46,729 nucleotides of DNA from Muribaculaceae bacterium (lineage in GTDB: Bacteria; Bacteroidota; Bacteroidia; Bacteroidales; Muribaculaceae). Of this stretch, positions 31,019 to 42,018 are shown one piece after another (position 1 is the stretch's first letter; each line of letters begins with the position of its first letter). The stretch covers positions 1 through 46,729 of the forward strand of contig JAGBIJ010000030.1 of the NCBI GenBank assembly GCA_017935045.1. The letters are read 5' to 3'. The notes under the pieces are model-generated. The model searched no databases. It saw only the letters and a list, made by a program, of their open reading frames with translations, and was not told the origin of the DNA. A program made the translations under genes and the position numbers.

Positions 31019-34000
31019 ATGATTACATTTTTCAAGAAAGGGTCGCAGCGGGTAATAGCCGTAGAGAGCGACAAAGAGTTGAGTGAAGATATGCTCGCAC
31101 GCCTGTCGTGGCTTTTCGACGGTGCGACACCCCTGAAGTCCAAGCGGCTTACAGGCAAATGGATAGGTCCTCGCAAAGAGATGATTACTCCCTGGAGTAC
31201 CAATGCCGTGGAGATTACCCAGAATATGGGAGTGGACGGCATAAGCCGCATAGAGGAGTACTTCAAGACTACAGCCGACGAGCCGCAGTACGACCGTATG
31301 CTCCAGCGCCTCTATCCCGACGGACTCGGCAAGGACATTTTTGAGATTACACGTAAACCTGAGGACATCATATATATTACCGACCTCGACGCCTACAACG
31401 CGCAAGAGGGTCTGGCTCTGTCTGCCGACGAAATATCTTATCTCCACTCCCTTGAGGAGAAACTGGGCCGCAAGCTGACCGATTCTGAGGTATTCGGCTT
31501 CTCGCAGGTCAATTCGGAACACTGCCGCCACAAGATTTTCAACGGTACTTTCATTATCGACGGCCAGGAGATGCCTTCCTCCCTTTTCAAGCTGATAAAG
31601 AAGACTTCTCAGGTCAATCCCAACGCTCTGGTGTCGGCCTACAAAGACAATGTGGCTTTCGTCAAAGGTCCTAAAGTACAGCAGTTTGCCCCCGTCAATC
31701 CCGACAAGCCTGATTTCTTTGAGGAGAAAGAAATCAAGACCGTAATCTCCCTTAAGGCGGAGACTCACAATTTCCCCACTACAGTAGAGCCCTTCAACGG
31801 CGCGGCCACCGGCACCGGCGGCGAGATACGCGACCGCCTGGGCGGCGGCAAGGCATCGCTGCCAATAGCCGGCACAGCTGTATATATGACTTCCTATCCC
31901 CGTCCCGACGAGCTTCGCGGCTGGGAGATGGATGCCCCCGCCGGTCGTCCCTGGCTCTACCAGACTCCCGAGGAGATACTCATCAAGGCTTCCAATGGCG
32001 CCTCGGACTTCGGCAACAAGTTCGGCCAGCCGCTGATCTGCGGTTCGGTGCTGACTTTCGAACACCAGGAGCATACACGCACTCTGGCTTATGACAAAGT
32101 AATAATGCTGGCAGGCGGCGTGGGCTTCGGAACCATGAAGGATGCCATCAAAGGGGAGCCGGAACCGGGCATGAAAGTCGTGGTAATGGGCGGCGACAAC
32201 TACCGCATCGGCATGGGCGGCGGAGCCGTCTCGTCGGTAGAGACCGGCCAGTATGACAACTCCATCGAGCTTAACGCCGTGCAGCGCGCCAACCCTGAGA
32301 TGCAGAAGCGCGTCAGCAATGTAGTGCGCGCTTTGGCCGAAATGGAAGACAATCCCTGTGTCAGCATCCACGACCACGGCGCCGGCGGACACCTCAATGC
32401 GCTTTCGGAACTCGTGGAGGCCACAGGCGGCAACATAAACATCGATGCGCTGCCCGTAGGCGACCCCACTCTCTCGGCAAAAGAAATAATCGGAAACGAG
32501 AGTCAGGAACGCATGGGACTGGTAATGGAGTCGCAACACACCGATATGGTGCGCCGCATAGCCGAAAGGGAGCGCGCTCCGTTCTACGTGGTCGGCGAGA
32601 CTACGGACGACGACCGGTTTGTCTTCACTCAGGCCGACGGCGTGAAGCCGATTGACCTGGCCATGGCCGATATGTTCGGCAACAGCCCCAAGACAGTGAT
32701 GACTGACTCCACTGTAAGACGCGAGTATGCCGATGTGACATATACTGCAGATGAAATAGACAAGTATCTGGAACTCGTACTCCAGCTTGAGGCCGTAGCC
32801 TGCAAGGACTGGCTGACCAACAAAGTAGACCGCTCCGTGACTGGCAAGATAGCTCGCCAGCAGTGCCAGGGCGAACTGCAGCTGCCGCTGTCAGACTGCG
32901 GTGTCGTAGCCCTCGACTATCACGGCAAGGCGGGTATCGCCACCTCAATAGGCCATGCGCCTCAGGCCGCCCTCATAGATCCGGGCAAAGGCTCCGTTCT
33001 GGCCATAGCCGAGGCGCTGACCAACATCTCGGGCGCGCTGCTCAAGCAGGGTCTGCGCTCTGTCTCGCTGTCGGCCAACTGGATGTGGCCATGCAAGAAT
33101 CAAGGAGAGGACGCACGCCTGTATGAAGCCGTGCAGGCTTGCTCTGATTTCGCCTGCGCCTTAGGCATCAACATCCCGACCGGCAAGGACTCTCTCTCGA
33201 TGACTCAGAAATACGGCGATGACAAGGTGTACGCGCCCGGTACGGTAATAATTTCCGCTGCCGGCGAGGTGCGCAACATACGCCGCGTGACCTCTCCTGT
33301 GGCCAAACAAAAGAAATCGACACTCCTATACATAGATATGAGCGCCGATGCCCTGAAACTGGGCGGCAGCGCTTTCGCCCAGGCTCTGGGCAAAGTAGGC
33401 AGCGAAGCTCCCACCGTGACTGACCCGGCCTATTTCGCCCGTACGTTCGACGCGCTGCAGAAGCTCGTAGAGCGCAACCTCGTACTGGCGCAGCACGACG
33501 TGAGCGCCGGCGGTCTAATCACGACTCTGCTGGAGATGAATTTCGCCAACGTCAAAGGCGGCATGGACGTATGCCTCGATGCTTTCGGCGAGCAGGACAT
33601 AATCAAGATTCTTTTCGCCGAGAACCCCGCCATCGTGCTTCAGGTGGCCGATGCAAAAATGGATTTGGCGAAAGATGTACTGGACAGCGCCCAGGTCAAG
33701 TATCACGCAATAGGCTCCTGGTGCGGCGACCGCATGCTTCACATACGCAAAGGCGATTTTGTCCGCGATTTTGATATCGACGCCCTTCGTGACGTATGGT
33801 ACCGCTCATCCTGGCTGCTCGACTGCGACCAGAGCGGCGAGAAATGCGCATCCGAGAGATTCAGCAATTACCGCAAGCAGCCCGTACGCTTCCGTCTGCC
33901 CAAAGACTGGAAAGGCCGTCTGGCCGACCTCGGCCTGAACGCCTATCGTCCTGGGCGCAGCGGTGTGAAAGCGGCTATAATACGCGAAAAGGGTGTGAAC

Positions 34001-34717
34001 GGTGACCGCGAGATGGCCTACAGTCTGTACCTGGCCGGTTTCGATGTGAAAGACGTACACATGACCGACCTCACGACAGGCCGCGAGACTCTGGAAGATG
34101 TCAATATGATAGTATTCTGCGGCGGTTTCTCCAATTCCGACGTACTCGGTTCCGCCAAGGGATGGGCAGGCGGTTTCCTCTATAATGAAAAAGCCAATAC
34201 GGCTCTCAAGAATTTCTATGCACGCGAGGATACCCTCTCGCTCGGCATCTGCAACGGCTGCCAGCTGATGGCCGAACTGGGGCTGCTTTATCCCGAACAC
34301 AAAGAGCATCACAAATTACTGCACAACAACTCACATAAGTTTGAATCCTCCTTCCTCAGCGTGGAGATTCCGCAGAACGACAGCGTGATGTTCGGCTCAC
34401 TGAGCGGCACTAAGCTCGGTATCTGGGTGGCTCACGGCGAAGGCAAATTCTCGTTCCCGGAAAAACTGTCGGAGTACAACGTGATAGCCAAATATGCCTA
34501 CAGCCAGTATCCCGGCAACCCCAACGGTTCGTATGCCTCAATAGCGGGCGTGGCCAGCAAGGACGGTCGGCATCTGGCTATGATGCCCCACCTTGAACGC
34601 GCCATATTCCCCTGGCAGTGCGGAGTCTATCCTGACAGCCACAGGAACGACGAAGTTACCCCCTGGCTTGAGGCCTTCGTCAACGCCCGCCGCTGGATTG
34701 AACGTAAGTCAAAATAA
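31019..34717 (+). CDS. purL: Phosphoribosylformylglycinamidine synthase (FGAM synthase), one-chain PurL
   Basis: A 1232-residue enzyme of step four of purine synthesis, turning FGAR, glutamine and ATP into FGAM. The N-terminal linker domain (1-200) has SQVNSEHCRHKIFNG. The synthase core has AETHNFPTTVEPFNGAATG, GGEIRDRLGGGKAS and a second AIRS-like half (NIPTGKDSLSM). The C-terminal glutaminase (about 960-1232) has its nucleophile Cys1078 in LGICNGCQLM. The large one-chain form matches E. coli and Bacteroidetes rather than the three-subunit Bacillus type. It leads an operon: the lipoprotein gene starts ten bases after the stop, then murB overlaps. Confidence 0.93.
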   Translation: MITFFKKGSQRVIAVESDKELSEDMLARLSWLFDGATPLKSKRLTGKWIGPRKEMITPWSTNAVEITQNMGVDGISRIEEYFKTTADEPQYDRMLQRLYPDGLGKDIFEITRKPEDIIYITDLDAYNAQEGLALSADEISYLHSLEEKLGRKLTDSEVFGFSQVNSEHCRHKIFNGTFIIDGQEMPSSLFKLIKKTSQVNPNALVSAYKDNVAFVKGPKVQQFAPVNPDKPDFFEEKEIKTVISLKAETHNFPTTVEPFNGAATGTGGEIRDRLGGGKASLPIAGTAVYMTSYPRPDELRGWEMDAPAGRPWLYQTPEEILIKASNGASDFGNKFGQPLICGSVLTFEHQEHTRTLAYDKVIMLAGGVGFGTMKDAIKGEPEPGMKVVVMGGDNYRIGMGGGAVSSVETGQYDNSIELNAVQRANPEMQKRVSNVVRALAEMEDNPCVSIHDHGAGGHLNALSELVEATGGNINIDALPVGDPTLSAKEIIGNESQERMGLVMESQHTDMVRRIAERERAPFYVVGETTDDDRFVFTQADGVKPIDLAMADMFGNSPKTVMTDSTVRREYADVTYTADEIDKYLELVLQLEAVACKDWLTNKVDRSVTGKIARQQCQGELQLPLSDCGVVALDYHGKAGIATSIGHAPQAALIDPGKGSVLAIAEALTNISGALLKQGLRSVSLSANWMWPCKNQGEDARLYEAVQACSDFACALGINIPTGKDSLSMTQKYGDDKVYAPGTVIISAAGEVRNIRRVTSPVAKQKKSTLLYIDMSADALKLGGSAFAQALGKVGSEAPTVTDPAYFARTFDALQKLVERNLVLAQHDVSAGGLITTLLEMNFANVKGGMDVCLDAFGEQDIIKILFAENPAIVLQVADAKMDLAKDVLDSAQVKYHAIGSWCGDRMLHIRKGDFVRDFDIDALRDVWYRSSWLLDCDQSGEKCASERFSNYRKQPVRFRLPKDWKGRLADLGLNAYRPGRSGVKAAIIREKGVNGDREMAYSLYLAGFDVKDVHMTDLTTGRETLEDVNMIVFCGGFSNSDVLGSAKGWAGGFLYNEKANTALKNFYAREDTLSLGICNGCQLMAELGLLYPEHKEHHKLLHNNSHKFESSFLSVEIPQNDSVMFGSLSGTKLGIWVAHGEGKFSFPEKLSEYNVIAKYAYSQYPGNPNGSYASIAGVASKDGRHLAMMPHLERAIFPWQCGVYPDSHRNDEVTPWLEAFVNARRWIERKSK

Positions 34718-34726
34718 CGGCGCCGA

Positions 34727-35677
34727 ATGTACATTCCGGTCCGCATAGCCAGACTTAGAAATCTGTATCACATTGTTACCGTCGGCCTCGGCGCGACGGT
34801 AGCAATGTTGCTGTTTACATCGTGCTTTACCGGAATAGAGAGTACTCCGAAAATCAAGCTGTCACGTCAGGATATGGAGGAGACCGTCAGAGAAACCGAG
34901 GAACAGAAGCTTCTGGCTTCGGTCAGGCCCTCTTCCGCCTCCGAGTGGCAACCAGGCCATAAATTCGTCATTCTTGATGCCAAGGCAACCCGCATCTTCG
35001 ACATCCAATCCGCGCCCTCTCCCGGCAATATCCTGCATTTCAAGGGTATATCCCGGCGTATGAGCCCCGACGGACGGCAAAACGTGATACTTCAGTTTAC
35101 CGATGACGATGGTACGGTGTACAGCCACCTTACTGGGCGCGAATCGCCTGACGAGATTATGAGCGACCGGCTGCCTATGCTCGCCGACAAGGAGATGATC
35201 GATTCGCTTGACGCTCTGCTGCGCCAACGCAATGTCTGGATAATTACTGATCTGTGGCTGACAGAAGGAGACAAACCGCTGAAAGGGAGAAAATATATCC
35301 CGGTAACTGTCACGGCCGTACGCGCCGGCAGCGAATCCCTCCCCTATCGCGTATGCTTCAAGGCGGAAGGTCTGCCTGCGGCCTCGGTACTGATGACCGG
35401 AAGCGGCGCCACGGCATCAAGCAGGCCTTTCCAATCTCTGTTTTCGTTGTCCGACCCCCATATAAGACACAAAAACATCTCTGACGAAAACTGGGAATAC
35501 ATACAGCGGGGACAAGTAAAAGCCGGTATGACCAAGAAAGAATGTCGGCTTGCGCTCGGCTCCCCTGCAGACACTGATTCGGGCCACGATTACTCCAGCA
35601 CCAAGGATCTGTGGCTTTACCCCGACGGACGCTGGCTGCGCTTTGAAGACGGTCTGCTTATTGATTTTAGAAAATGA
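34727..35677 (+). CDS. Lipoprotein with BamE/SmpA-like C-terminal domain
   Basis: A 316-residue protein with a membrane-spanning signal segment (LGATVAMLLFTSC, lipobox FTSC, lipidated Cys about residue 33). Residues 40-215 form an envelope domain that I do not recognise. The last 60 residues (GQVKAGMTKKECRLALGSPA, then DLWLYPDGRWLRFEDGLLID) match the BamE/SmpA pattern of a helix then strands, used in outer-membrane assembly and anchoring. Its ATG follows purL by ten bases and its stop overlaps the murB fusion start (ATGA), so it is translationally coupled. The link with purine synthesis is probably just operon sharing. Confidence 0.75.
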   Translation: MYIPVRIARLRNLYHIVTVGLGATVAMLLFTSCFTGIESTPKIKLSRQDMEETVRETEEQKLLASVRPSSASEWQPGHKFVILDAKATRIFDIQSAPSPGNILHFKGISRRMSPDGRQNVILQFTDDDGTVYSHLTGRESPDEIMSDRLPMLADKEMIDSLDALLRQRNVWIITDLWLTEGDKPLKGRKYIPVTVTAVRAGSESLPYRVCFKAEGLPAASVLMTGSGATASSRPFQSLFSLSDPHIRHKNISDENWEYIQRGQVKAGMTKKECRLALGSPADTDSGHDYSSTKDLWLYPDGRWLRFEDGLLIDFRK

Positions 35678-37473
35678 CTATGAAAGAACTGATACGCAAA
35701 GATGTCGACATTACGGCCATGACCACATTCGGCATCCCGGTAAAAGCACGCTATTTTGCCGAATATTCGTCTCTCGCGGAACTGCAGGCCATAATGCGCA
35801 CTCCGGAATACCAGCAGAACGAGGCGCTGCATATAGGCGGCGGCTCTAATCTGCTGTTCGTCAATAATTTTGATGGAATTGTACTGCACTCCCGTATTAA
35901 AGGAATCAAAGAATACCGCAAGAACGACGACACAATCTACATCATAGCCGGAGCAGGCGAAAAGTGGTCTGACCTGGTAGATTATTGCGTCGGCCGGGGG
36001 TATGCCGGTATGGAGAATATGGCAGGCATACCTGGCGAGGCCGGCGCCTCGGCCATACAGAATGTAGGGGCTTACGGCGTGGAGGCTAAAGACGTGATAT
36101 TCAGCGTAGAATGTTACGACAGGCTCAGTCATCGCGTTGTGAGGTTTACAAATGATGAATGTAAATTCGCCTACCGAGACTCCATATTCAAGCATGAGGC
36201 CCGAGGACGATATTTCGTACTCAGAGTCAGCTACAGACTGACACCTTCGCCCATAGCGTCGACCCTGGAATACGGGCCGCTGCGCAGTCTGGGCGACACA
36301 CTGGGCCACCGGCCGACCCTGCGCGAAGTGAGGGACGAAGTCATACGTCTGCGCGACTCCAAACTACCAGACCCGAGCGTTATCGGAAGCGCAGGAAGTT
36401 TCTTCAAGAATCCCGTGATGCCGCGCAGGTACTTTGAGAAGACCGTCGCTCCGCTATGGCCAGAAGAAATACCCCACTACGATCTGCCCGGAGATATGGT
36501 CAAAGTGCCGGCCGGATGGCTGATCGAGCACGCCGGACTGAAAGGCAAACGCATAGGAGGCGCCGAGGTGTATCCGAAGCAGTGTCTGGTAATAGCCAAC
36601 ACCGGCAATGCCTCGGCAGCTTCCGTAACCGGTCTGTGTGACCTGATCCGCAAGACGGTACACAGCCGTTTCCGGATTCTGCTGCATCCGGAGGTAAACT
36701 TCATCGATACCTCGGTCCATATCGAGGTGCTGGGAAGCGGAACCTCGCGCGGCGTGCCTGAACCGGCTTGTCCGTGTGATGTATGCACGTCGTCCGATCC
36801 TAAGGATAAGCGTCTGCGCGCCTCCGTGCTGGTACGCACCCACGGTCTGAACATACTGATAGATGCTTCGCCCGACCTGCGCACTCAGCTGATACGCAGC
36901 CAAATCACTGACATCGACGCCACCCTCATCACGCATCAGCACTACGATCACGTCGGCGGCCTCGACGACCTGCGTGCCTTCTGTCTTGACAAGGATATGC
37001 CTCTGTATGCCAGCGCTGCAGTGGCGGCCGACCTGCGCAAACGTCTGGACTATGCTTTCCGGCCTCATCCGTACCCCGGCGTGCCGGTATTTGATGTCCA
37101 CGAAATCGGCGACCACACCTTCTACATCGACGGACTCGCCGTCACGCCCATTGCGGTAAAACATGCGAGTCTTCCCATACTCGGTTTCAGGATTGGACGT
37201 TTCGCATACATTACCGATGCAAAGACGATAGAAGAAAGCGAACTGGAAAAGCTGACAGGCCTGGATGTATTGATTGTCAACGCATTGCGTTTTGAACCAC
37301 ATTTCTCCCACTTTGACGTGCAGGAGGCGCTCGCCCTGATTGAACGCGTGAAGCCGCGGCAGGCATGGCTTACACATATCTGCCACGATATGGGCCGTCA
37401 CGAGGATGTCGCCCCCCGACTGCCTGAGAACGTGCATCTCGCATACGACGGGCTCAAAATATTGATACCTTAG
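35674..37473 (+). CDS. murB: MurB (UDP-MurNAc reductase) fused to PhnP-like MBL-fold hydrolase
   Basis: A 599-residue single chain. Residues 1-344 are MurB, which uses FAD and NADPH to reduce UDP-GlcNAc-enolpyruvate to UDP-MurNAc: GGGSNLL, MAGIPGEAGASAIQNVGAYG, catalytic Arg168 in YRDS, Ser242 in GSFFKNP and Glu340 in HPEVNFI. After a three-residue link the sequence becomes a PhnP-like MBL enzyme (345-599): EVLGSGTSRGVP, a CPCDVC zinc-knot, HQHYDHVGG (His421, His423, Asp425, His426), His497, YITDAK Asp515 and THICHD. In other Bacteroidetes these are, as I recall, adjacent separate genes. No stop or frame break lies at the join (36703-36717). The start overlaps the lipoprotein stop; an ATG at 35680 is possible. 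Confidence 0.9.
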   Translation: MTMKELIRKDVDITAMTTFGIPVKARYFAEYSSLAELQAIMRTPEYQQNEALHIGGGSNLLFVNNFDGIVLHSRIKGIKEYRKNDDTIYIIAGAGEKWSDLVDYCVGRGYAGMENMAGIPGEAGASAIQNVGAYGVEAKDVIFSVECYDRLSHRVVRFTNDECKFAYRDSIFKHEARGRYFVLRVSYRLTPSPIASTLEYGPLRSLGDTLGHRPTLREVRDEVIRLRDSKLPDPSVIGSAGSFFKNPVMPRRYFEKTVAPLWPEEIPHYDLPGDMVKVPAGWLIEHAGLKGKRIGGAEVYPKQCLVIANTGNASAASVTGLCDLIRKTVHSRFRILLHPEVNFIDTSVHIEVLGSGTSRGVPEPACPCDVCTSSDPKDKRLRASVLVRTHGLNILIDASPDLRTQLIRSQITDIDATLITHQHYDHVGGLDDLRAFCLDKDMPLYASAAVAADLRKRLDYAFRPHPYPGVPVFDVHEIGDHTFYIDGLAVTPIAVKHASLPILGFRIGRFAYITDAKTIEESELEKLTGLDVLIVNALRFEPHFSHFDVQEALALIERVKPRQAWLTHICHDMGRHEDVAPRLPENVHLAYDGLKILIP

Positions 37474-37630: not shown

Positions 37631-38728
37631 ATGGAAGAAAATCTGATTAAAACGTGTCTTCACGACCGTCACGTAAAGCAAGGCGCGCTCATGTCTCCTT
37701 TCGGTGGATTTGACATGCCTATACAGTATACCACCATCATCGAAGAGCACAATGCCGTACGCCACAACGTAGGCGTATTCGATGTCAGCCACATGGGCGA
37801 GGTCAGAGTAAAAGGCAAGGATGCCTACAAATTCGTAAGCTACATCTTCGTAAACGACGTTACCGGCGCTCCCGACGGACAGATTTTCTACGGTATGATG
37901 TGCCATGAGAATGGCGGTACTGTGGATGACCTTCTGGTCTACAAAGTAAACGACGAGGAATACTTCCTGGTAATCAACGCAGCCAATATAGCCAAGGATT
38001 ACGCCTGGATCGAGCAGAACGCCAAGGGCTTCGACGTAGAAGTCAAGAACGAGAGCGACTACTATGGCGAAGTGGCCGTACAGGGACCTGAGGCAGAGGA
38101 AGTGCTGATGCGCATACTCGGTCTTCCCCTCGATGAGATAGCTTTCTATAACTTCAAGACTTTCCATATCGAGGGCGAGGACGTCATAATCTCGCGTACC
38201 GGCTATACCGGCGAAGATGGCTTTGAGGTCTACGGCTCACATGATTTTACCCGCCGCCTGTGGGACAAACTGATGGAAGCCGGCGTCACTCCCTGCGGTC
38301 TGGGCTGCCGCGACACCCTGCGCTTCGAGGTAGGTCTGCCCCTCTATGGCGACGAACTGGCCGACGACATCACTCCGCTTGAGGCAAGCCTGAGCATGTT
38401 CGTGAAGCTCGACAAACCTACCGACTTCATCGGCCGCGAAGCTCTGGCCAAACAGAAAGCCGAAGGCGTGACTCGCCGCATCATCGGAATCGAGCTTGAA
38501 GGCAAAGCCATACCGCGCCACGGCTATCCTGTAGAGGCCGACGGCAAGGAGATAGGTTATGTGACTACCGGCTACAACTCCATCTCCACGGGCAAGAGCG
38601 TAGCCATGGCCATGGTCGAGAAGCCCTACGCCAAGCTGGGCACTCCCGTAGCCGTGCGTATCCGCAAGAAGACCTTCCCGGGCACTGTGGTCAAAAAACG
38701 CTTCTACGACAAAAACTACAAGAAATAA
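37631..38728 (+). CDS. gcvT: Glycine cleavage T protein (aminomethyltransferase)
   Basis: A 365-residue protein that takes the methylamine group from lipoyl H protein and passes the one-carbon unit to tetrahydrofolate, releasing ammonia. MSPFGGFDMPIQYTTIIEEH opens the family pattern; FDVSHMGEV and EVYGSHDFTRRLW follow. The C-terminal beta-barrel carries GFEVYG and GLGCRDTLRFEVGLPLYG. Length is usual. It leads the five-gene operon gcvT-H-PA-PB-lpd with 24 bases to gcvH. Confidence 0.93.
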   Translation: MEENLIKTCLHDRHVKQGALMSPFGGFDMPIQYTTIIEEHNAVRHNVGVFDVSHMGEVRVKGKDAYKFVSYIFVNDVTGAPDGQIFYGMMCHENGGTVDDLLVYKVNDEEYFLVINAANIAKDYAWIEQNAKGFDVEVKNESDYYGEVAVQGPEAEEVLMRILGLPLDEIAFYNFKTFHIEGEDVIISRTGYTGEDGFEVYGSHDFTRRLWDKLMEAGVTPCGLGCRDTLRFEVGLPLYGDELADDITPLEASLSMFVKLDKPTDFIGREALAKQKAEGVTRRIIGIELEGKAIPRHGYPVEADGKEIGYVTTGYNSISTGKSVAMAMVEKPYAKLGTPVAVRIRKKTFPGTVVKKRFYDKNYKK

Positions 38729-38752
38729 TTCTAATAAAACCATAAAATCATC

Positions 38753-39133
38753 ATGAGCAAAGTATTAGACAATCTCCGTTATGCCGACTCCCACGAGTGG
38801 GTACTGGTAGAAGGCGACATCGCCACTGTAGGCATCACTGATTACGCACAGCACGCTCTCGGCAATATCGTATACGTCGACATGCCCGAGATTGGTGACG
38901 AAGTAGTCGCCGGCGAAGAGTTCGGCGCCGTTGAATCCGTAAAGGCAGCAAGCGACCTCATCTCCCCCGTCAGCGGCGAGGTTGTGGAAATCAACGAGGC
39001 TCTCGAGGACGCACCCGAACTCATCAACGAAGACGCCTTCGCCAACTGGATTATGAAGGTAAAACTCTCTGACGCAGCCGAGGCCGATGCTCTGCTTGAC
39101 GCAGCCGCCTACGCCAAATTATGCGAAGAGTAA
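38753..39133 (+). CDS. gcvH: Glycine cleavage H protein
   Basis: A 126-residue lipoyl carrier. The lipoylated Lys64 lies in GAVESVKAASDLISPVSGEV, the canonical hairpin. It shuttles the reaction intermediate between P, T and L proteins. It is the second gene of the operon. An 88-base gap with a hairpin (39176-39204) separates it from gcvPA. Confidence 0.95.
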   Translation: MSKVLDNLRYADSHEWVLVEGDIATVGITDYAQHALGNIVYVDMPEIGDEVVAGEEFGAVESVKAASDLISPVSGEVVEINEALEDAPELINEDAFANWIMKVKLSDAAEADALLDAAAYAKLCEE

Positions 39134-39175
39134 TATCTGACCCAGTGACTTCACTTCAGACAACCCATTAAGACA

Positions 39176-39204
39176 TAGAGGCTATGCTTCAGGCTTGGCC
39201 TCTA
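39176..39204 (+). other. Intercistronic hairpin between gcvH and gcvPA
   Basis: TAGAGGC (39176-39182) pairs with GCCTCTA (39198-39204). It lies in the only large gap of the operon. It could set a higher H-protein level by slowing decay or partly ending transcription. Confidence 0.4.
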
Positions 39205-39222
39205 TACTTATAATTATAGATT

Positions 39223-40548
39223 ATGAGCAACAAATTCATCCCTCATACTCCGGATGACATCGCCCGCATGCTGGAGCGCATCGGCGTAAAGAGCATCGAC
39301 GACCTCTATGCCGAGGTGCCCGCCGAAGTCATCTTCAAGGAGGATTACAATATACCCTCCGCAATGTCCGAGCTGGAGATACGCGATTTCTTCAGCAAAC
39401 TCGGCGACAAAAACAAGCAGCTGACCATCTTCGCCGGCGGCGGAGTGTATGACCATTACTCGCCTTCTGTCATCAGCCATCTGCTGGCACGCAGCGAGTT
39501 TTACACAGCCTATACTCCATATCAGCCCGAAATCTCGCAAGGCACGCTTCAATACATATTTGAATATCAGAGCATGATTGCCGAGCTTACCGGCATGGAG
39601 TGCTCCAACGCCTCGATGTACGACGGAGCGACAGCCACTGCCGAGACTGCCTTCATGATGGTAGCCTCGGCTCGCAAGAAAAACCGCGTGCTTATCTCCT
39701 CTACCCTCTCCGACCGCGTAGTCGCCGTGGTAAAGACTTACACTCGCTTCCACGGCGTAGATCTGGACATCATACCCGAGAAAGACGGTGTGACCGATCT
39801 CGACGCACTCAGGAAATTGCTGGAGAAAGGCGACGTGGCAGGCGTGATTCTGCCCACTCCCAATAAATACGGTATCATAGAAGACTTTTCCGGCATAGCC
39901 GACGAGGTACACGCCGCCAAGGCTCTGCTTGCCATCAACGCCGATCCCTCGGCGCTGGCCGTATTGCGCACTCCGGCTGAATGGGGCGCCGACATCGCCT
40001 GCGGCGACGGTCAGACCTTAGGCATGCCCCTGAGTTTCGGCGGCCCGTATCTGGGCTACATCGCCTGCTCCAAAGCGCAGCTCCGCAAGATGCCCGGCCG
40101 CGTCGTAGGCGTCACTACCGATGCCGACGGCAAGCGCGCGTACGTGCTTACGCTCCAGGCCCGCGAGCAGCATATCCGCCGCGAGAAAGCGACCTCCAAC
40201 ATCTGCTCCAATCAGAGCCTTATGGCGCTGTATGCCACAGTCTACGTAGCCCTCATGGGACGCAAGGGTCTGGTCGAGGTCAACGAAATGTCGGCCGATG
40301 GCGCCCACTACCTGTTTGACAAACTCACAGCAAGCGGCAAATACACCCCGGCCTTCCCCGGCAAGCCTTTCCTCAAGGAGTTTGTCGTCCATACGGAGCT
40401 CGACATCAAGGCCCTCAACAAGCGACTTGCCGACAACGGCATCATGGGCGGCATAGACCTGGGCGACGGCAACCTGATGCTCGCCGTTACAGAGAAGCGT
40501 TCGCTGGAAGAAATCGACCGTTTAATCAAATTAATGACTGAGGCTTAA
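39223..40548 (+). CDS. gcvPA: Glycine dehydrogenase (P protein) subunit 1
   Basis: A 441-residue subunit of the split P protein. GGGVYDHYSPSVISHLLARS, YTPYQPEISQGTLQ, MYDGATATAETAFMM and FGGPYLGY are typical of the N-terminal half. It lacks the PLP Lys, which sits in subunit 2, and forms with it an alpha2-beta2 decarboxylase. Three bases separate it from gcvPB. The two-subunit form is the Gram-positive/archaeal layout. Confidence 0.93.
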   Translation: MSNKFIPHTPDDIARMLERIGVKSIDDLYAEVPAEVIFKEDYNIPSAMSELEIRDFFSKLGDKNKQLTIFAGGGVYDHYSPSVISHLLARSEFYTAYTPYQPEISQGTLQYIFEYQSMIAELTGMECSNASMYDGATATAETAFMMVASARKKNRVLISSTLSDRVVAVVKTYTRFHGVDLDIIPEKDGVTDLDALRKLLEKGDVAGVILPTPNKYGIIEDFSGIADEVHAAKALLAINADPSALAVLRTPAEWGADIACGDGQTLGMPLSFGGPYLGYIACSKAQLRKMPGRVVGVTTDADGKRAYVLTLQAREQHIRREKATSNICSNQSLMALYATVYVALMGRKGLVEVNEMSADGAHYLFDKLTASGKYTPAFPGKPFLKEFVVHTELDIKALNKRLADNGIMGGIDLGDGNLMLAVTEKRSLEEIDRLIKLMTEA

Positions 40549-40551
40549 GCG

Positions 40552-42018
40552 ATGAAATACTACGATAAACTGATATTTGAACTTTCTCACTCCGGCCGTA
40601 AGGGCTATGAGCTTCCTGCCAACAAAATAGCAGGTCACGCACTCGAGTCTATCCCGGAATCGCTGCGCCGCTCCGTGCCTGCCGAGCTGCCCGAAGTCAG
40701 CGAGCCGGACGTCGTACGCCACTATACTAATCTGTCGTCCAAGAACTTCGGCGTGGACACAGGCTTCTATCCCCTGGGCTCTTGTACGATGAAGTACAAC
40801 CCGAAAATCAACGAGGAGATAGCCCAGCTGCCCGCATTCGCGTCGCTCCATCCTCTTCAGGACTCCGATACTGTGCAGGGCGCGCTTGAAGTCTACTACA
40901 ATCTCCAGCAGGCCCTCGCCTCCATCGCCGGTCTGTCTGAATTCACTCTCAACCCGTACGCCGGCGCCCACGGCGAGCTGACCGGTCTGCTCGTGATGCG
41001 CACTTACCACGAAAAGCGCGGCGACACCAAGCGCAGAAAGGTAATCGTGCCCGACTCAGCCCACGGCACCAATCCCGCTTCCGCCATGGTCGCCGGACTT
41101 GATGTGGTAGAGGTAAAATCCAAACCCAACGGATCTATCGACGTCGAGGATCTCAAGCCCCTGCTCAACGACGAGATAGCCGGTATCATGATGACCAATC
41201 CCAACACGCTGGGCATGTTTGAGACCGAAATCATGGAGATAGCCGACCTGGTGCATAAGGCTGGCGGTCTGCTCTATTATGACGGCGCCAACCTCAATCC
41301 CCTGCTGGGTCGCGTGCGCCCGGGCGACATGGGCTTTGACATCATGCACATCAACCTCCACAAGACATTCTCCACGCCTCACGGCGGCGGCGGCCCCGGC
41401 TCAGGTCCCGTAGGCGTACGCAAAGGTCTGGAGGAATACCTGCCCAATCCCCATGTCCGCAAGGATGCCGACGGACGCTTCTACGTCGATTTCGGCAAGG
41501 ACAGCCTCGGCTCTGTGTCCACATTCCTGGGCAACTTCGGAGTGATGCTTAAGGCTTACGCGTATATTCTGACGCTCGGCAAGGAAAATATACGTAACGT
41601 CGGTCCCATGGCCACACTCAACGCCAACTATATCAAGGAGTCGCTCAAAGATGACTACCTGCTCCCCATCGAAGGCGTATGCAAACATGAATTCGTATTC
41701 GACGGACTGAAGGACAAAAGCACCGGCGTGACTACGCTCAATGTTGCCAAACGTCTGCTGGACTACGGTTTCCACGCTCCCACAATCTATTTCCCGCTGC
41801 TCTTCCATGAGTCCATGATGATAGAGCCGACCGAGACTGAGAGCCTGGAAACGCTCGACGAGTTCATCGACGTAATGCACAAAGTAGCCCGCGAAGCCGC
41901 AGAGAACCCCGATCTCGTTAAGGAGGCGCCCGTCACTACCCTTGTGCGCAAACTCGATGAAACAACAGCAGCCAAGCATCCGGTACTGACTTATAAAGCC
42001 ATGCTCGCCAATGACTGA
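40552..42018 (+). CDS. gcvPB: Glycine dehydrogenase (P protein) subunit 2
   Basis: A 488-residue PLP subunit. [20 protein letters not shown] near the start, NPNTLGMFE and [10 protein letters not shown] mark the fold. The PLP-binding Lys271 is in [18 protein letters not shown]. It decarboxylates glycine and loads aminomethyl on the H protein. Its stop overlaps the lpd start by eight bases, so the operon is tightly coupled. Confidence 0.93.

Follow-up and report, generated by a model that had tools for sequence, protein, structure and literature searches.

Two questions are raised by an open reading frame that begins as MurB and ends as an MBL-fold hydrolase: whether it encodes one genuine protein, and, if so, whether the join means that the two enzymes act together. 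The frame lies on contig JAGBIJ010000030.1, within the window, by which we mean the whole stretch of 46,729 nucleotides that was analysed. It is a single ORF of 599 codons on the plus strand, in which a type I MurB is followed by an MBL hydrolase of the PhnP superfamily. It is divided as follows:

35674..37473, plus strand: murB::MBL fused reading frame, 599 aa plus stop (ORF and its translation).
35692..36708, plus strand: MurB part, residues 7-345, UDP-N-acetylmuramate dehydrogenase type I (NF000755 and TIGR00179 above cut-off; aligned to 3i99 and 1mbb).
36709..36717, plus strand: link T346-S347-V348 (codon comparison with free-standing MBL genes).
36715..37470, plus strand: MBL-fold hydrolase part, residues 348-599, PhnP superfamily (PF12706 and PRK02113; 6b9v, 3py5 and 3g1p by sequence).

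A preliminary description of this DNA had proposed that the frame runs without a stop from MurB into the MBL domain over a link of three residues. The frame is open throughout, and the link reads T346-S347, then V348.

The N-terminal part was said to be an intact MurB, and the profile searches and alignments agree. NF000755 (MurB) covers residues 7-350 with 374.3 bits against a cut-off of 277, TIGR00179 reaches 223 against 144.5, and the score of Pfam MurB_C on the fusion lies above gathering. The MurB structures 1mbb, from E. coli, and 3i99 were matched over their full length, and the active-site Arg, Ser and Glu, which we take to be the catalytic residues of the E. coli enzyme, are kept in the fusion:

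36175..36177, plus strand: Arg168, equivalent to E. coli MurB Arg159 (alignment to 1mbb).
36397..36399, plus strand: Ser242, equivalent to E. coli MurB Ser229 (alignment to 1mbb).
36691..36693, plus strand: Glu340, equivalent to E. coli MurB Glu325 (alignment to 1mbb).

We aligned 96 fusions, namely P0001 (the fusion protein of the window), 94 other loci of its genus, g1, and one protein from genus g35. S242 and E340 are present in all 96 rows and R168 in 95, the remaining codon being unreadable. Y200 of the fusion aligns with Y190 of E. coli MurB, presumably the type I tyrosine. The MurB part stops straight after the PEVNFID strand, nearly as in unfused relatives, and the MBL hydrolase then continues the chain. 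Four members of the genus carry an extra 27-45 residues within MurB, inserted at about window residues 256-274 in L029, L030 and L134 and at about 160-164 in L028.

For the C-terminal part, PF12706 matches residues 393-569 with 148.3 bits (gathering 27). The MBL domain had likewise been described as intact, with HxHxDH, CxCxxC and a late Asp and His. We compared it with the C-P lyase cyclic phosphodiesterase PhnP (3g1p), whose metal ligands, CxCxxC motif and His200 are all matched in the fusion. In this alignment, H421, H423, D425, H426 and H497 correspond to H76, H78, D80, H81 and H143 of E. coli PhnP, and D515, H568, H571 and H546 to D164, H222, H225 and H200. Two of the motifs are contiguous:

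36769..36786, plus strand: CxCxxC (C366, C368, C371; alignment to PhnP 3g1p).
36934..36951, plus strand: HQHYDH (H421, H423, D425, H426; alignment to PhnP 3g1p).

Going by the roles of these residues in PhnP, we assume that HQHYDH forms the catalytic metal site and that CxCxxC together with H571 forms a probable structural metal site. The cysteines of CxCxxC are kept in 96 of 96 fusions, and the checked residues after C371 are invariant in 95; the remaining row, L030, breaks off because the contig ends within the frame. As judged from the alignments, the metal site of the PhnP superfamily (HxHxDH, the later His, Asp and His, and CxCxxC plus His) is complete in the MBL part.

The name 'PhnP-like', which had been given to this domain, is valid at the superfamily level only, as far as profile scores and gene content indicate: superfamily membership and the full metal site stood, and a closer kinship did not. 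TIGR03307, the PhnP equivalog model, gives 99.1 bits against a cut-off of 272.25, and PhnJ (PF06007) was not found in the fusion's own genome, which is 89.9% complete; in a control of the PF06007 search, E. coli was the only one of 14 control genomes to match. The identification of the MBL part as a true PhnP was rejected for these two reasons. PRK02113 (NF002553) is the top-scoring NCBIfam MBL model. It is matched over its full length (residues 349-598, model positions 2-252 of 252), but with 323.4 bits against a cut-off of 386. Two of seven unfused relatives tested (L062 and L064) passed this cut-off and five fell below it, so the low score of the fusion is not due to fusion alone. NF038231, the MBL of the GPMC system, scores 269.4 bits against 360. 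The class II cyclic-nucleotide phosphodiesterases Apyc1 and YhfI share the MBL fold with HxHxDH, but the match to PF23023 (Apyc1) is weak, at 25.5 bits against a gathering score of 50, and the MBL part was accordingly rejected as the anti-phage protein Apyc1.

Within its own genome (2.22 Mb in 62 contigs), P0001 was matched once. A profile search with TIGR00179 also gave one match, and PRK02113 gave one strong match of 326.3 bits; two other MBL matches were weak (28.8 and 26.6 bits). The fused chain is the only MurB found in this genome, at 89.9% completeness, and should therefore supply MurB; because no second MurB copy was found, the fusion is hardly a dead remnant. A genome in that number of contigs and of that completeness leaves room for the suspicion that the join is an assembly or sequencing artefact, against which the relatives of the same genus provide a direct check. 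The fusion was matched in 97 of 111 genomes of g1, a genus of uncultured Bacteroidales, and in 91 of these a single stop-free match spans both parts. Three more (G033, G572 and G021) have one open frame in which the match is split in two by an insert, and in G027 the open frame passes the join before it runs off the contig. Of the 97 matching genomes, 95 hence have an uninterrupted frame over the join, the other two (G597 and G020) being fragments at contig ends. The 14 genomes of g1 with no match are all less than 90% complete, and among the high-quality genomes of the genus the fusion was matched in 46 of 46. We fetched the locus from every g1 genome whose match reaches the join, and both parts lie in one frame in 95 of 95; those labelled, for example, Muribaculaceae bacterium, Porphyromonadaceae bacterium UBA7180 or uncultured Bacteroidales (L031-L039) belong to this set and are not additional cases. 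Since the same open join recurs in 95 genomes, an error of assembly or of sequencing, the latter considered in the preliminary description, is excluded. On the evidence of these reading frames, the fusion is real and genus-wide.

The join itself varies little. Genus members are 51-69% identical to the window protein over the spanning matches, and the length of the link is identical in all 95 g1 loci. The stretch Glu340-Gly354 is 15 residues long in 95 of 96 fusions and 17 in one, the g35 protein, by sequence. The MBL part begins 8 residues after Glu340.

An open frame might still yield a separate MBL protein, through internal initiation or through proteolysis at the link, and the codons around the join bear on this. 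In free-standing MBL frames, the last Met before the GTGTS motif stands at position -6 in 52 of 74, and there is none within the 20 residues before the motif in 9 of 74; frames in which no GTGTS motif was recognised were left out of the 74. This usual last-Met position is occupied by V348 (GTC, 36715-36717) in the window. Across g1 the codon is ATG in 5 of 95 loci and an Ile codon in 71, which makes one chain the likeliest product. The 12 codons that precede the motif contain an ATG in 10 of 95 loci, GTG occurs at Val positions near the join (at -4 in 38 and at -2 in 25 of 94 loci), and some ATG, GTG or TTG lies between -9 and -3 in 44 of 95. These codons, together with an ATG retained at the join of the g35 fusion, speak for a separate product. 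However, none of the join positions has a conserved start codon in 94 g1 loci (a set without L103, whose motif is GTGGS), the Ile codon prevails where the old start would be expected, and the link has merely 2-3 residues. Internal initiation at the join appears unlikely from this codon pattern, and we give a separate MBL protein by either route a low probability.

Outside g1, the two genes occur in relatives as separate neighbours that sometimes overlap. In L040, L052, L061, L062 and L063, murB and the MBL gene even share a frame, and just one stop separates them. By hand count, murB and the MBL gene lie side by side in at least 35 of 393 genomes of the order, from at least 15 families; 28 of these were among the matches listed, and G038, G059, G343, G383, G564, G449 and G266 were added. 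The preliminary description had mentioned such neighbouring genes elsewhere in the Bacteroidetes, and they do exist within the order; in a phylum sample of 296 genomes, only G238 and G343, both of the same order, had the two as neighbours among the matches listed. Among the matches listed for the 393 genomes of the order, which were sorted by E-value so that spanning matches come first, the only stop-free spanning match was that of the window's own genome, and the phylum sample likewise contained no fusion except this one. A screen of 397 genomes of the family at an E-value of 1e-100 gave, outside g1, one genome (G070, genus g35) that matches both parts in one open frame, and two g48 genomes that match both parts through stops. 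Because unusually long open frames among the matches raised the question of further fusions, 16 extra loci were checked (14 with long or similar frames, and G038 and G059), and a MurB-MBL fusion was found in 0 of 16. Long frames of other kinds do occur: in G266 (L238 650-2188, minus strand) the open frame of a free-standing MBL extends about 240 residues beyond the MBL part, and in G467 (L239 2166-4313, minus strand) about 375 residues of open frame precede MurB.

The g35 fusion has a longer link in addition to the ATG at its join, and its MurB groups with those of unfused g38 genomes in the trees (support 0.94; 91/86 in the other tree). A single common fusion for g1 and g35 was mildly rejected (p-AU 0.038), and the two differ in link length and in the kept ATG. 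The trees and the form of the join suggest that the g35 fusion is probably a second, independent event; it is known from one genome, so an error there is possible. The MurB trees and the larger MBL tree place g1 with other members of its family. A smaller first MBL tree had put g1 outside the family, beside L043 and L144, which would have suggested a foreign origin of the MBL part; with 40 more loci, g1 stood beside its own family (support 0.92), and we regard the earlier placement as a long-branch error. Overall, the MurB-MBL protein appears to be a new architecture of known families that probably arose twice.

Whether the two parts also cooperate is a separate matter, on which the gene neighbourhood is informative. 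Directly upstream of the fusion lies a further gene:

34727..35677, plus strand: lipoprotein gene, 316 aa, upstream of the fusion and overlapping its start by 4 bases.

No Pfam family matches this protein above gathering; the C-terminal end is weakly alike to BamE (E 0.0077), and a weak BamE match was found in 5 of 27 of its relatives. A profile of the lipoprotein searched against solved structures gave no credible relative, the one match having an E-value of 0.43. The relatives share a motif, seen in their sequences, that we take to be lipobox-like. The lipoprotein gene precedes the fusion in 86 of 95 g1 loci, and the order lipoprotein gene, murB, MBL gene recurs in 9 of 9 loci of g48 and g38 and, among sampled loci of other families in which the genes adjoin, in 13 of 21; for several of these 21, the flank retrieved was only about 300 bases. 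The loci for the neighbourhood comparison were hand-picked from the matches listed and are not a random sample. In other genera of the family, murB stands beside murA in 18 of 22 sampled loci, with one more in reversed order and three with neither arrangement. In family MBL loci that lack the murB-MBL pair, the lipoprotein gene adjoins the MBL gene in 20 of the 22 loci sampled. The two exceptions are L192, in which a contig starts with the end of murB, and L204, which has neither neighbour. The MBL gene is thus tied at least as firmly to the lipoprotein gene as to murB. Outside the family, we chose MBL loci with no adjacent murB, 14 from the order and 6 from the wider phylum; none of them has the lipoprotein gene, and the link of lipoprotein and MBL genes is therefore limited to part of the order. 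In most of the loci L066, L067 and L151-L170, murB lies directly by murA, and most of their MurBs group in the MurB tree; those of L067, L161 and L162 fall elsewhere in it.

These neighbourhoods are the main evidence that the fusion should not be taken to prove a partnership of MurB and MBL, which the preliminary description had suggested. Such a partnership would have the MBL enzyme act on a product of MurB or its cofactor, or on a damage product (e.g. a cyclic phosphate formed when FAD or a UDP-sugar breaks down), while being held near the MurB site. The persistence of the fusion throughout a genus at 51-69% identity and with an unvarying link, the second and probably separate fusion in g35, the murB-MBL neighbours in the order and the short distance from Glu340 to the MBL start all argue for it; the g35 event, these neighbours and the constant link would also be expected if the parts cooperate. 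Against it stand the companions that murB and the MBL gene keep when apart, the two genomes, both of one order, to which the neighbours were confined among the phylum matches listed, and the consideration that genes one stop apart may fuse with no functional reason. The claim that the MBL enzyme acts with MurB is hence not supported by our data: the functional link stays unproven and, from the arrangement of the genes, seems weakened, and we regard a partnership as doubtful, albeit worth keeping in view. More specifically, the MBL part might be a built-in repair or clearance module for a cyclic phosphodiester arising beside the MurB site, such as cyclic FMN formed when FAD breaks down or a cyclic UDP-sugar product, with the fusion selected for this cooperation. 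We consider this version improbable; if true, it would add a new step, MurB-linked metabolite repair, beside peptidoglycan synthesis.

Our preferred reading, which we hold to be probable though by no means certain, is that two independent enzymes share one chain that formed through loss of the stop codon between neighbouring operon genes. In the ancestral operon, murB would have stood between the lipoprotein gene, upstream, and the MBL hydrolase gene, downstream. Once murB, in the same frame as the MBL gene, had lost its stop codon, the two would have been translated as a single chain of about 66 kDa; the former MBL start codon would have decayed afterwards, mostly to an Ile codon. Comparison of the DNA sequences shows that the genes adjoin in relatives, that the join is open and that the start codon has changed, and the order of events is our inference. 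By analogy with type I MurB enzymes, the N-terminal part would convert UDP-GlcNAc-enolpyruvate to UDP-MurNAc with FAD and NADPH. The C-terminal part would be a two-metal phosphodiesterase with a PhnP-type site, and its substrate, to go by its family, is probably a small cyclic phosphate or nucleotide in a housekeeping role outside the C-P lyase pathway. We favour such a role because of the low PhnP score, because no PhnJ was found, and because related enzymes hydrolyse cyclic mononucleotides: YhfI has a preference for cAMP/cGMP, and the class II enzymes, Apyc1 among them, form homodimers (PMC9117128). Since dimers are the state of Apyc1 and its class II relatives with this fold, the fused chain may dimerise via its MBL part. 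Each of the two sites most likely acts on its own, and fusion would mainly fix a 1:1 output.

The nearest precedent that we found is the MurB/MurC fusion gene of Verrucomicrobium spinosum, which complements E. coli murB and murC mutants (PMC4803751). Both cases place MurB within a lineage-restricted fusion; the partner in V. spinosum is the next enzyme of the pathway, whereas here it is a hydrolase without a known place in it (PMC4803751). A literature search, with most subscription papers outside its reach, returned no report of a MurB-MBL fusion and nothing that links PRPP, cyclic phosphate and MBL; a search for MurB with Muribaculaceae gave, among the papers listed, no title or abstract containing MurB. 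The fusion ties a hydrolase that is widespread in the searched Bacteroidota genomes to the cell-wall enzyme MurB throughout a genus. It provides a natural construct for seeking the substrate of the hydrolase, as well as a natural test of whether the fusing of neighbouring genes reflects function or chance. In addition, the neighbour data suggest that the lipoprotein, too, regularly accompanies the hydrolase.

Further genes around the locus differ between lineages. The gene upstream of the lipoprotein gene in the window (31019-34717), which we take to be purL, has a homologue in this position in ten of the compared g1 loci, where many genomes of the family instead have an S9 prolyl oligopeptidase gene (L050, L056-L059, L068 and others). 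Downstream of the fusion, the region 37631-42018 contains gcvT (by Pfam) and otherwise presumably a glycine cleavage cluster; among the loci compared, this cluster also lies downstream in L003/L031, L039 and L065 and not in L032-L036. The hydrolase gene is followed by another MBL-fold gene, of a different kind, in g35 and in two further genera (L050 4827-5582, L068 3843-4613 and L205 3358-4083); this second gene belongs to Lactamase_B_3 (Pfam) in L050 and L068 and, by similarity, in L205.
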